Shown piece by piece: positions 40,767 to 45,929 of a stretch of DNA of 49,174 nucleotides. The stretch is from Alphaproteobacteria bacterium. GTDB lineage: Bacteria > Pseudomonadota > Alphaproteobacteria > Caulobacterales > Aquidulcibacteraceae. The DNA is taken from positions 1-49,174 of the forward strand of contig JAIYAO010000008.1 in NCBI GenBank assembly GCA_027488965.1, in the 5' to 3' direction. Positions within the stretch are counted from its first letter, which is position 1, and every line of letters starts with the position of its first letter. The position numbers were made by a program, and so were the translations under genes. The notes beneath the pieces are model-generated. The model was not told the origin of the DNA and searched no databases. It worked only from the letters and a program-made list of their open reading frames with translations.

Positions 40767-41771
40767 CTAGCCCTTCGGCTGGCGCGAACAATCACCCATG
40801 GTCATGCCTGCGCCTGCCGGAACCTGGCCCGTGCGCACGAAGCGCTGCCGCGCGCCGCTGTCGCTGCGCCACACCTTCGGATGGAGCGTGCACTGGCCGA
40901 GCAGGCCCGTGCGCAGCGCTGCGGCGTTCGCTTCCAGCGCCGCATAGCGCCCGCCGCCGCCATCGCCGTAGGAGTACGCCACCGCGTATCCCGAACTCAC
41001 CAGCCACGCACCGAGATCGGTGGACTGGTTGCCTAAGATCACCTCGCATACAACCAGCGGCCGGCCGAACGATTCCGTCTTGCGACCCGCGCGGTTCACT
41101 TCCGGCAGGCAGCTCACGATCTTGCCGGCGATGAACACGCCCAGCGCCTCGCGCGCAAACCGTCCACAGTCTGCCAGCGGTCCGTCGCCCGCGCGGCATT
41201 TCTGGCGCAACTCCGGCGCGTCCACATCGAGCAGGCGCACCGATACATCGCCCAGCCAGAACGTGTCGCCGTCATAGACCTTCGCGGGATCACCAAGTCC
41301 CACGTACTGCGAAAGCTTCACCGGCCCGCCCAGCGCGATCGCCACGATGGCCAGCGCCGCCGCCGCGCCCGCCGTGGCGCCCAGCAAGCCAAGCGCCAGC
41401 GGCCGCACAAACGCGCGCTCCAGGAACTCGCCGGGCGTCAGTGCAAGGAACGCCAGCACGCCCAGCACGGCGCCGAACACGATGAGAAGATCCAGCAGCG
41501 GCGTGATGTAGCGCTGCACGGTGGGGGCGTTGGTGCTGAGCGCCTGGAACAGCACGCCCTCGGTGGGGTCGTCTTTCTTGGCCCAGGCGTCGCTGACCGC
41601 GGCGAACACGGCGTCGTGGCCGCCCATCTGGAACGCCAGCAGCGCCGCCAGCGCCAGAAAGCCCGCCCCCGCGATCCAGATCGGCATGCGCAGGAGGAAG
41701 GAACTCTGCTGGGTGCTCGCCAGGAAGGCCATCAGCGACAGCACCACGAACACCAGCACCTGCCCGGCCAT
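40767..41771 (-). CDS. Membrane-anchored thermonuclease (SNase)-like protein
   Basis: The start at ATG 41771 (MAGQVLVFVVLSLMAF) gives 334 aa. The N-terminal half has about four membrane helices (near residues 4-18, 30-48, 93-112 and 124-148). The C-terminal half from about 163 is a staphylococcal nuclease domain: VYDGDTFWLGDVSVRLLDVDAPELRQKC keeps the metal-binding Asp, the Arg and the Asp/Glu of the active site, and KTESFGRPLVV supplies the second Arg. Two cysteines in the nuclease part suggest disulfides. The nuclease may face the periplasm. Confidence 0.88.
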   Translation of the reverse strand: MAGQVLVFVVLSLMAFLASTQQSSFLLRMPIWIAGAGFLALAALLAFQMGGHDAVFAAVSDAWAKKDDPTEGVLFQALSTNAPTVQRYITPLLDLLIVFGAVLGVLAFLALTPGEFLERAFVRPLALGLLGATAGAAAALAIVAIALGGPVKLSQYVGLGDPAKVYDGDTFWLGDVSVRLLDVDAPELRQKCRAGDGPLADCGRFAREALGVFIAGKIVSCLPEVNRAGRKTESFGRPLVVCEVILGNQSTDLGAWLVSSGYAVAYSYGDGGGGRYAALEANAAALRTGLLGQCTLHPKVWRSDSGARQRFVRTGQVPAGAGMTMGDCSRQPKG

Positions 41772-41917
41772 GTCGTCCCCCAAGTCCTTGCGCGCACTGG
41801 GTTTTGCGCGGCGCGAACCATAGCGACGGTGGCCGCGGTCGTGCAAATCGGCGCCCCTGCGGGCGGAATCGCGGGTATGGTTGGCCGTCTTCAACCATCT
41901 TCCCCCACGGGTTCTTC

Positions 41918-42343
41918 ATGCATCCCCGGCATACCCTCGGGCCGCGTCCGCTCCTGCTGGTCGTCGCCGCCGCGCTGGTGGACGGCGCCGGCCGGGTGCT
42001 GATCGCGCAACGGCCGGCGGGCAAGAGCCTTGCGGGCCTGTGGGAGTTTCCCGGCGGCAAGGTCGAGCCGGGCGAGGGGCCGGAGGAGGCGCTGGTGCGA
42101 GAACTGCTTGAGGAGCTGGACGTGAGGGTGACGCCCGATGCGCTCATGCCGCTCACGTTCGCCTCGCACGCCTACGACGACATGCACCTGCTGATGCCGC
42201 TTTACGTGGTGCGGCGGTGGTCAGGCGCACCGCGCGCGGTGGAGGCGCAGGCCATCGCCTGGGCCGCGCCCGGCGATCTCGACAGCTATCCCATGCCGCC
42301 CGCCGACGCCCCGCTGGTGGCGCATCTCAGGGGCGCGCTGTGA
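41918..42343 (+). CDS. mutT: 8-oxo-dGTP diphosphatase MutT
   Basis: The ATG at 41918 gives 141 aa; the track ORF is longer and unsupported. The Nudix box is GKVEPGEGPEEALVRELLEELDV, with all catalytic Glu and Arg residues; the family Gly near its end is Asp here. IAQRPAGKSLAGLWEFPGG is the MutT-type lead-in. It removes oxidised guanine nucleotides from the pool. It overlaps the flp gene start (TGATG), so the two are co-translated. Confidence 0.92.
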   Translation: MHPRHTLGPRPLLLVVAAALVDGAGRVLIAQRPAGKSLAGLWEFPGGKVEPGEGPEEALVRELLEELDVRVTPDALMPLTFASHAYDDMHLLMPLYVVRRWSGAPRAVEAQAIAWAAPGDLDSYPMPPADAPLVAHLRGAL

Positions 42344-42510
42344 TGCGGCTCAGGTCCCTTCTGCGCGCCCGCGCCGGCCACACCTCCATCGAGTACGCGA
42401 TGATCGGGGCGTTCGTCGCCGTCGGCATCATCACTGCGCTGGGCTCCATCGGCGTGTCCGTGGAGAAGGCGTTCGCCGACGTCACCGCTGGCTTCACCGC
42501 AACGCCATAA
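42343..42510 (+). CDS. Flp/Fap-type pilin precursor
   Basis: A 55-aa ORF, too short to appear alone in the track: MRLRSLLRARAGHTSIEYAMIGAFVAVGIITALGSIGVSVEKAFADV. The leader RARAG is followed by HTSIEYA, the exact G/xxxxEY cleavage pattern of class III (Flp) prepilins, with Glu5 and Tyr6 of the mature protein. A hydrophobic helix follows. No tad assembly genes are present, so this is an orphan Flp gene. Its start overlaps the mutT stop, an odd operon partner. Confidence 0.92.
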   Translation: MRLRSLLRARAGHTSIEYAMIGAFVAVGIITALGSIGVSVEKAFADVTAGFTATP

Positions 42511-42519
42511 CTGTCGGCG

Positions 42520-43653
42520 CTAGCGTGCGCAGGGCGTCGCGTCGCGCGCATCGCCGATGCACGCGCCGAGGCTGCGCGGTGCGGCGAACGTGGAGATGGA
42601 GCGCACCAGTCCGTCGGTGAACTGGTCGCGGAAGACCTCCGAAAGACTCTGGCGACGGAACGAGACGGTGTTGACCGCCGGGCTCCAGATGTCGGCCTTC
42701 TGGCCGAACCGCTCGCGGAAGTACTGCACCATCGGGTCGATCTGGGCGTTGGTGAGCATCGTCATGTCGATGGTCGCGCCCGCCGTCTGGTCGTCGCGGG
42801 ACACCACGATGAACGGTCCCTCGCCGGCGGTGCGCAGGCCCACCTTGTCCATGATCGCCGCCGCGCGGACGAAGTCGTAGTTGCGGACCCGCTGATCGCA
42901 GCTGGCGCCGCCGCCGGCGTCCCGAAGCAGCCAGAACAGCGGCCGGATCGCCGCGTATCGCCCGTTGCCAAGCGCCTCGAGGCCGATCTCGGCCTGCGCG
43001 TAGGTGCGTGTTTCGATCTGGCGCTGGATCGCTTCGCACAGGCGGCGGTTGCGGACCTGCGCGTTGGGGGCCTGCTGCGGGCTGCGCATCAGCACCACGG
43101 CGTGGCCGCCGGCGTTGTCGAGCCGCACTTGCGAGCGATTCAACAGGACGAACCGGATGCGCACATCCGTGACGGCGCCCGTGCCGAGACTGCGGGTGGC
43201 GCCGCCGGCGCCGCCGATGCTGCGGGTGCCGCCCGAAGCCCCCGGCGGGGGCGGCGGCGGCGGCGCCGGCGGGGGCACATCGCGGGCGATGGAGGGGCGG
43301 GGTTCGCCCCGGGGGCCGCCGCTGGCGGCGGCGCGGATGCTGGAAGCGACATGTCGGCCGGGCGCGTCCGCGCGCGGGCACACCGTACCGATCGCCGGCG
43401 GACGTCGCTCCGGCGCGGTTTCGGCGATGAAGAACGTCTTGCACGGGCCGTCCGCGGCGCTGAACTGGATCGTGCCGCTGCGGCCGTTGGCGCTCCACGA
43501 CACGGCTTCGCCGGTGCGCGCGTCGCCCACGGTTTGTTCGGCCACGGCGCCGTAGAACGGGATGTCGACGGGCGAGAGCGCGTCCTGCGCCCGCGCCGTG
43601 CCCGAAAGGGCCAGACCCATCACCGCAACCGCCGCCCAGAATCCCCGCATCAC
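42520..43653 (-). CDS. Secreted protein of unknown family, paralog A
   Basis: This 377-aa protein has a signal peptide MMRGFWAAVAVMGLALSGTARAQDA (cleavage about after ARA). A short beta-type N-terminal part, a proline linker PPPAPPPPPPP, and a C-terminal domain from about residue 200 follow: NRRLCEAIQRQIETRTYAQ, RPLFWLLRDAGGGASCDQRVRNYDFVRAAAIMDKVGL, GEGPFIVVSRDDQTAGATID, YFRERFGQKADIWSP and LGACIGDARDATPC. The same motifs recur in the same order in the neighbour at 43765-44721. Conserved cysteines suggest disulfides in the periplasm. I recognise no known family. Confidence 0.82.
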   Translation of the reverse strand: MMRGFWAAVAVMGLALSGTARAQDALSPVDIPFYGAVAEQTVGDARTGEAVSWSANGRSGTIQFSAADGPCKTFFIAETAPERRPPAIGTVCPRADAPGRHVASSIRAAASGGPRGEPRPSIARDVPPPAPPPPPPPGASGGTRSIGGAGGATRSLGTGAVTDVRIRFVLLNRSQVRLDNAGGHAVVLMRSPQQAPNAQVRNRRLCEAIQRQIETRTYAQAEIGLEALGNGRYAAIRPLFWLLRDAGGGASCDQRVRNYDFVRAAAIMDKVGLRTAGEGPFIVVSRDDQTAGATIDMTMLTNAQIDPMVQYFRERFGQKADIWSPAVNTVSFRRQSLSEVFRDQFTDGLVRSISTFAAPRSLGACIGDARDATPCAR

Positions 43654-43764
43654 CCTGCTCCCACAACCGGCTTCCCGCCCGCCGCGCGGCGCGCGCGCCT
43701 CATCCCGCTGCGTCTAGCACGCTGCCGCAGCGATGCGGAACGTCCGTTTATCGGCGTCCGCCGC

Positions 43765-44721
43765 CTACGTGCACGGCGCGTCGCGCAGGTCGCCCTGGCG
43801 GCATCCGGCGCGCGCGGCGGGATTGGAGACGAAGCCCAGCGCATTCATGAAGCTTTCCTGGAAGCGCGACCCGAAGAAGCTCGTCAGCACCGCCCGCTTC
43901 TTCGCGGGGTCGTTGCGCGACGGATCCCAGATGTCGTTCTGGAAGGCGAAGCCGTCGCGGAAGTACTCCACCAGGGCCGCCACCTCCGCGTTCGACTTGC
44001 CGGTGAGATCGATCACCGCGGCGGCGCGCTCGTCGGTGCGGGCCACGATGAAGTAGGGGCCGTTGTTCGGCAGGCCGTACTTGTCGCGGATGGTCTTGGC
44101 GCGGGCGTAATCGTAGTTGGCCATGCGCTGGGCGCAGGTGCGCGCGCCGGCGGGCGCGGCGTTGCGGTTGAGCCAGTACATCGGGCGCAGCGCCTCCGTC
44201 GTGCCGTCGGAGGCCTTGCGGATGCCCACACGCACTTCCTGCGTGGTGGCGGTGTCCATCAGCCGCCAGATCACGTCGCAGGTGGCGGTGTTGCGGCTGG
44301 CGGTGGAGGCGGCGTCGGAGAACAGCACCACCGCGGAGCCGCCGTTGGCGGGGCGACGCTCCTGCGTGCGGTCGATCTCGACGATGACGGGCGTCGCGAC
44401 CGGCGCGCGACGGGCGAGGCTGCGGGTGACCGGGGCTTCCGCGGCGCCTGGCGGCGGCGGCTCGGCAGGCGCTGCGGGCGGGGGAGGCGGCGGCGGTGCA
44501 GGCGGCGGCGGCGCTTCCGGCGCGGGGCTGCCCACTTCGGGCTCCGGCGCGAGCGTGGGTTGCTCGGCGGGCGGCTCCATGGCGGGGTCGTCCACCGGGG
44601 CGGTCTGGGCCGGGGCCTCCGCAGCGGGAGGCGGCTCAAGCGGCGCGCCCGTTTCCGACTTCTCGGCGCTGCACGCGGCGAGCGCCGCCGCCATCAGGAT
44701 CGAAATCGCCCAGATCCGCAT
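43765..44721 (-). CDS. Lipoprotein of unknown family, paralog B
   Basis: The start ATG 44721 follows GGGGA; the product is 318 aa with lipobox LAAC (Cys17). Residues about 20-100 are a Pro/Ala/Glu-rich spacer (PPPPAPPPPPPPAAPAEPPPP). The C-terminal domain parallels paralog A: RNTATCDVIWRLMDTATTQ, RPMYWLNRNAAPAGARTCAQRMANYDYARAKTIRDKYGL, GPYFIVARTDERAAAVIDLTGK, YFRDGFAFQNDIWDPSRN and AGCRQGDLRDAPC. It is membrane-anchored where A is soluble, and it lies between accA and A on the same strand. No family is known to me. Confidence 0.82.
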   Translation of the reverse strand: MRIWAISILMAAALAACSAEKSETGAPLEPPPAAEAPAQTAPVDDPAMEPPAEQPTLAPEPEVGSPAPEAPPPPAPPPPPPPAAPAEPPPPGAAEAPVTRSLARRAPVATPVIVEIDRTQERRPANGGSAVVLFSDAASTASRNTATCDVIWRLMDTATTQEVRVGIRKASDGTTEALRPMYWLNRNAAPAGARTCAQRMANYDYARAKTIRDKYGLPNNGPYFIVARTDERAAAVIDLTGKSNAEVAALVEYFRDGFAFQNDIWDPSRNDPAKKRAVLTSFFGSRFQESFMNALGFVSNPAARAGCRQGDLRDAPCT

Positions 44722-44814: not shown

Positions 44815-45789
44815 CTAGCGCGCAGGGGCGGCGCTCTCTTCCATGCGGCCGATGGCCAGGAACCGCGCCCGGCGCTGCGCCTTGAGGGCGGGGCCTTCCA
44901 TGTCCGTGAGCGCGTCGAGCGCCTTGGCCACAGCGGCGCCCACGGCGGCCACCGCCTGCTCCGGGGCGCGGTGCGCGCCGCCGATGGGCTCCTTGATGAT
45001 CCCGTCGATGACCTTGAACCCCAGGCAGTCCTGCGCGGTGATCCGCATGGCGGCCGCCACGTCCTTCGCGCGGCCGGCGTCCTTGTAGAGGATCGAGGCG
45101 CCGGCCTCCGGGGTGATCACGGAGTACACGGCGTGCTCCAGCATCAGCACCGTGTTGGCGGCGGCGATGGCGATGGCCCCGCCGGAGCCGCCTTCGCCCA
45201 CGATCACCGCCACCATGGGCACGCCCAGCGTCAGGCAGCGTTCCGTGGAGCGGGCGATGGCTTCCGCGCCGCCGCGCTCTTCCGCGCCGAGACCCGGATA
45301 GGCGCCGGGCGTGTCCACCAGCGTCACCACCGGCAGGCCGAACCGGTCGGCCATGTCCATGAGCCGGATCGCCTTGCGGTAGCCCTCGGGGCGCGACATG
45401 CCGAAGTTGTGGGTGATCCGCTCGTGGGTGGTGCGGCCCTTCTCGTGGCCGATGACCATGCAGGGGCGGCCGAGGAAGCGGCCGATGCCGCCCACGATGG
45501 CGGCGTCCTCGGCGTACTTGCGGTCTCCGGCCAGCTCCACGAAGTCGGTGACGAGGGCGGCGACGTAATCCTTGAAGTGCGGCCGCTCCACGTGGCGGGC
45601 CACCAGCGTCTTCTGCCAAGGGTCGAGTCGGGCGTAGATCTCGCCCAGCAGCTTCTCGGCGTTGTTCTTGAGCCGGCTGAGCTGGGGGCTCATGGCGGCC
45701 GCGCCCGCGGACTGGGCGTCGCCGCTCAGGGCGGCGATCTGCTCCTCGATCAGTTTGATCGGCTTTTCGAAGTCGAGGTACTGGGTCAA
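44815..45789 (-). CDS. accA: Acetyl-CoA carboxylase carboxyltransferase alpha subunit
   Basis: The best start is TTG at 45789 (TQYLDFEKPIKLIEEQIAAL), because family members begin with this motif; the track ORF extends upstream without support. The product is 324 aa. The features are YVAALVTDFVELAGDRKYAEDAAIVGGIGRFLGRPCMVIGHEKGRTT, THNFGMSRPEGYRKAIRLM, LVDTPGAYPGLGAEERGGAEAIA and VGEGGSGGAIAIAAANTVLMLEHA. It forms the carboxyltransferase with AccD for malonyl-CoA synthesis. A rare TTG start may limit translation. A GACTC lies at 45796-45800. Confidence 0.95.
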   Translation of the reverse strand: MTQYLDFEKPIKLIEEQIAALSGDAQSAGAAAMSPQLSRLKNNAEKLLGEIYARLDPWQKTLVARHVERPHFKDYVAALVTDFVELAGDRKYAEDAAIVGGIGRFLGRPCMVIGHEKGRTTHERITHNFGMSRPEGYRKAIRLMDMADRFGLPVVTLVDTPGAYPGLGAEERGGAEAIARSTERCLTLGVPMVAVIVGEGGSGGAIAIAAANTVLMLEHAVYSVITPEAGASILYKDAGRAKDVAAAMRITAQDCLGFKVIDGIIKEPIGGAHRAPEQAVAAVGAAVAKALDALTDMEGPALKAQRRARFLAIGRMEESAAPAR

Positions 45790-45929
45790 GGCGTGGACTC
45801 GGGATGGGCCCCAAGGGCGGGGCAGGCGAGGCCGGACAATAGCGCCGCCGCCAGTCAGGGCAAGCAACCCCGTTAACGTGCGCGAAACCCTGTCGGAGCC
45901 TTCAGGCTCGAGCCTTCAGGCCAAGCGCT

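Follow-up and report, generated by a model that had tools for sequence, protein, structure and literature searches.

The slot directly after accA in a 49,174-nucleotide stretch of an Aquidulcibacteraceae genome (order Caulobacterales; contig JAIYAO010000008.1), referred to here as the window, holds two adjacent minus-strand genes for exported proteins, A and B, and raises the question of what kind of protein domain they share and what that domain could do in the cell envelope. The original prediction placed two genes with common motifs at this site, and coordinates, strand, gene order and motifs all agree with it (Table 1).

Table 1. Coordinates of the two genes, their parts and their upstream neighbor in the window
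Feature	Position	Strand	Description
Gene A	43765..44721	-	Lipoprotein, 318 residues: Cys17 lipidation site, Pro-rich tether of ~90 residues, then shared domain
Pro-rich tether of A	44398..44670	-	Residues 18-108, 35% Pro
Shared domain of A, predicted thioredoxin-like fold	43768..44397	-	Residues 109-318; Cys148, Cys196, Cys307, Cys317
Gene B	42520..43650	-	Secreted, 376 residues: after an ordinary signal peptide come an N-terminal domain with two Cys, a Pro run and the shared domain
N-terminal domain of B	43336..43587	-	Residues ~22-105, W...G...C70...G..C91; weak likeness to 17kDa_Anti_2 (PF16998)
Shared domain of B, predicted thioredoxin-like fold	42523..43164	-	Residues 163-376; Cys205, Cys251, Cys364, Cys374
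accA	44815..45792 (start codon approximate)	-	Acetyl-CoA carboxylase carboxyltransferase alpha subunit; upstream neighbor, 93 bp before A

Two exported paralogues

The signal peptide of A ends in a lipobox (LAAC; MRIWAISILMAAALAAC-SAEK) that can likewise be read in all A-type members, while that of B is ordinary and ends in ARA, so the expected division into one lipoprotein and one protein with a normal signal is borne out; every member read carries one or the other kind of signal. Other details of the original prediction needed amendment. The two proteins do share a C-terminal domain, but one of about 210 residues rather than about 180, and the closing motif C..GD.RDA.C holds in A but reads C.GD.RDA..C in B. 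Long proline linkers were claimed for both products; the tether of A fits that description, but B has only one short run, PPPAPPPPPPP, inside a stretch rich in Gly, Arg and Pro. The separate N-terminal domain of B had been overlooked.

The domains of A and B align at 135 bits (BLASTP, E 2e-41, 36% identity over 211 residues), against at most 22.7 bits for 500 shuffled B domains; A and B are tandem paralogues, and they are the only copies of the domain found in the window's genome. As the original prediction had it, the domain belongs to no recognized sequence family: searches of Pfam, NCBIfam, PHROGs, PADLOC and PDB sequences returned no family match, and a profile test gave no match to any Pfam or NCBIfam thioredoxin model. 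Literature searches found the family nowhere described. Given its absence from every sequence library searched, the family appears to be undescribed as far as the tools used reach, although the fold itself is a known one. GltJ, MXAN_5187 and VCPI-5 were considered as relatives and rejected, their matches being weak and confined to the Pro-rich part.

A likely thioredoxin-like fold

The domain had been put forward as the strongest candidate for an undescribed envelope module. Its fold, by AlphaFold models and Foldseek searches, is likely a known one. The window domain was modeled from 13 aligned sequences (pLDDT 89.9, pTM 0.87); a second model, built from 12, covers the core of one distant member (pLDDT 86.0, pTM 0.82), and the two rest on overlapping alignments. 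DSSP assigns both of them the order strand-helix-strand-helix-strand-strand-helix, which contains the beta-alpha-beta ... beta-beta-alpha succession of a thioredoxin core. Foldseek matches of the window-domain model in the PDB were weak (E 0.2–1) and included many thioredoxins and PDI domains, with a similar outcome against a viral library. The distant-member model reached a best E of 2.2e-3 and probabilities up to 0.96–0.99, its matches including a secreted M. tuberculosis disulfide oxidoreductase, Bcp, ResA, TlpA, ERp57 bb' and a complex I B8-type subunit; nearly all of its top 20 matches were thioredoxin-fold proteins, an assignment that we take to be established for these PDB entries. Neither model has a match under E 0.001, and TM-scores are 0.3–0.5 with rmsd 5–9 Å; the shared domain is thus likely a thioredoxin-like fold, yet a divergent one.

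Thioredoxin folds have a cis-proline immediately ahead of their third core strand. In the window-domain model Gly113-Pro114, invariant in 15 sequences, lies directly before that strand (residues 115–119) and by its position would occupy the cis-proline place.

Cysteines and invariant residues

Every one of the 11 members in the window's family has exactly four cysteines in its domain, at four shared alignment columns, and each of the five distant members has exactly the first two of these. The first two, Cys40 and Cys88 of the domain (Cys148 and Cys196 in A), do not vary across the 16 members examined; the other invariant domain residues are Asn36, Trp75, Asp96, Arg99, Gly113, Pro114 and Asp130. 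CXXC, which catalytic thioredoxins and the TlpA family carry where the first core helix begins, occurs in none of the 13 aligned domains and in none of the other three members. Since the cysteines come and go in twos, and the proteins are exported, structural disulfides are the best explanation, with Cys40 predicted to join Cys88 and the C-terminal cysteines to form a second pair (Cys148–Cys196 and Cys307–Cys317 in A). This behavior as two pairs, four cysteines in near and two in distant members, accords with the paired disulfides suggested originally, and the census (four or two, never three) makes the prediction an easily tested one.

Distribution and copy history

Profile searches covering 398 genomes of the order found the domain in 10. 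Six of these are among the 60 genomes of the window's family (54 have no detectable copy), and four belong to a second family (G110, G190, G375 with two copies, and G390), in which a search of 105 genomes added no further members. Samples of 385 genomes from the class and 399 from the phylum gave no match besides the window's own, and plasmids gave none; the domain thus appears restricted to only a few Caulobacterales.

The A–B pair is kept in close relatives, as anticipated: all three genomes examined of the window's genus have it, the two congeneric ones matching Hyphomonadaceae MAG contig JAEUMP010000010 and Caulobacteraceae MAG contig WRPF01000041. The idea that relatives always occur as pairs beside accA fails, however. 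Elsewhere in the window's family G204 has three tandem copies and G038 and G172 one each, so that copies after accA are single, double or triple, which rules out a recurrent pair as the rule, and distant members lie at other places. In the tree, window A and window B each group with the congeners' copies, and the three G204 copies group with the single G172 copy (94/100), several deep branches being unresolved; from these placements, two or more lineages probably gained tandem copies.

Orthologues of A in the two congeneric genomes are 68–70% identical over the domain, with dN/dS of about 0.1–0.3 (a rough figure, synonymous sites being near saturation), the mark of purifying selection. Window B evolves fast, with an end branch of 1.41, and A and B may therefore differ in function. 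The N-terminal domain of B, with the pattern W...G...C...FF...G..C, is found in B, in both of its congeners and in the single-copy protein of G038. A similar pattern, W...G...C[KR].F...G..C, characterizes the 17 kDa outer membrane surface antigen family 17kDa_Anti_2. Its profile scores 13.8 bits (E 0.054) against the G038 copy, under the curated cut-off of 26.6 bits, and does not match B itself; hhalign of the N-terminal domain with PF16998-like proteins of the order gave a probability of 31% (E 0.0005 for one comparison). The resemblance is suggestive only, and is limited to this domain of B-type members.

Possible role and alternative explanations

There is somewhat better than even reason to think that A and B carry exported, redox-dead thioredoxin-fold domains, each held by two disulfide staples, and that they act as a binding or scaffold module in the envelope, with A tethered to a membrane. 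An envelope role, proposed originally, is reasonable because both products are exported. Each would present one thioredoxin-fold domain whose CXXC active site was lost or never present, the domain being stapled instead by two structural disulfides. In enteric bacteria, lipoproteins without Asp at +2 are favored for the outer membrane. A has no Asp there, so its lipid would hold it on a membrane that is probably the outer one, and its Pro-rich tether would let it reach out; B may be free in the periplasm or bound via its extra N-terminal domain. Other redox-dead thioredoxin folds serve as binding or scaffold modules. By analogy, the shared domain may bind or scaffold another envelope protein or a ligand and would not be an oxidoreductase.

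Known systems offer two points of comparison. The TlpA/ResA-type extracytoplasmic thioredoxins (1lu4, ResA 1su9, TlpA 4txv and pneumococcal Etrx1 4hqs) are likewise exported, often lipid- or membrane-anchored, and have the fold predicted for A and B with a proline at the cis-Pro place; A and B differ in having no CXXC and in cysteines that lie elsewhere and are apparently structural, and no sequence similarity of their domain to this group was found. The redox-dead domains of ERp57 (b/b') and the complex I B8 subunit (L51-S25-CI-B8 family) are thioredoxin folds without CXXC that are used for binding or assembly. Their cellular setting is another one, whereas A and B are exported and have two conserved cysteine pairs, with a Pro-rich tether in A.

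The conservation of Cys40 and Cys88 in 16 of 16 members, together with the kept cis-Pro position and the secreted oxidoreductases among the nearest PDB folds, might instead be taken to indicate an active thioredoxin relative whose redox pair has moved, these two cysteines forming a reversible disulfide and Gly-Pro binding substrate. We consider this unlikely: no member has a CXXC, thioredoxin chemistry is seated where the first core helix begins and neither cysteine lies there, and Cys40 is placed about ten residues into helix 30–46 of the model. A comparably low probability attaches to the possibility that these are lineage-restricted, fast-evolving, putative surface proteins whose tandem copies diversify against phages, predators or neighbors, an exposed decoy or receptor rather than a part that builds the envelope. 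Patchy occurrence (10 of 398 genomes), local duplication in at least two lineages, the fast B branch and an N-terminal domain that in B and G038 weakly resembles a surface antigen are all consistent with such a protein, but A is conserved genus-wide under purifying selection and no match to a defence family was found.

The position of the module could also suggest a service to the envelope in fatty acid or lipid supply, with co-transcription from accA. In each of the six module-bearing genomes of the window's family, the module comes directly after accA and shares its strand, and the 93 bp gap has no terminator-like site, although simple promoter and terminator scans, which find none, are uninformative at 70% G+C. 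Against this, other genes follow accA in most genera of the family, and the second-family gene lies elsewhere (beside a methyltransferase-like gene in G110, G390 and G190), both of which weaken the link and leave this explanation very unlikely. Because relatives occur in one to three copies, 54 of 60 genomes have none and distant ones lie elsewhere, accA looks like a mere neighbor, with no functional link indicated.

Alongside the favored binding or scaffold module, a broader and more tentative proposal is that the domain defines a new, order-restricted family of exported thioredoxin folds with disulfide staples instead of CXXC chemistry, repeatedly duplicated in place and carried on Pro-rich tethers, that may form a scaffold in the Caulobacterales envelope, or a surface receptor, of a kind not described before. 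The present analysis gives a testable predicted fold to a family that every sequence library searched had left blank, and would add a case of an exported thioredoxin fold with the frame kept and the chemistry gone. Being small and patchily distributed, the family is of modest wider significance, which the finding of a partner or phenotype would raise.

Genes around the module and in the accA slot

The G110 and G390 members are flanked by an exported methyltransferase-like gene on one side and an alpha/beta hydrolase on the other; the methyltransferase-like gene adjoins the G190 member too. At second-family loci L019, L020 and L030 the methyltransferase-like neighbor is predicted to be exported, with an alpha/beta hydrolase on the other side in two of the three; the copy tested had no Pfam match.

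In many genomes of genus g5 accA is followed by eipA (envelope integrity protein A). The module does not replace eipA in this slot, since the module-bearing genomes all have eipA elsewhere. Most family genomes have one eipA, but it is doubled in tandem in G000 (contig C200, 6545-7762, plus strand) and also in G132, G192 and G038. Downstream of accA and eipA at three g5 loci (L053, L054 and L063) lies a gene whose secreted product has a Pro run and a common stretch, LERFS/ND..F..YV, possibly a second undescribed exported family in the same slot.

Within the window, a small Flp/Fap-type pilin gene (42340-42510, plus strand; PF04964, E 2e-7, just under the cut-off) directly follows a NUDIX gene and is convergent with gene B. 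A minus-strand gene at 40767-41894 encodes a protein that is membrane-anchored and resembles staphylococcal nuclease (PF00565, E 0.0013, slightly below the cut-off).
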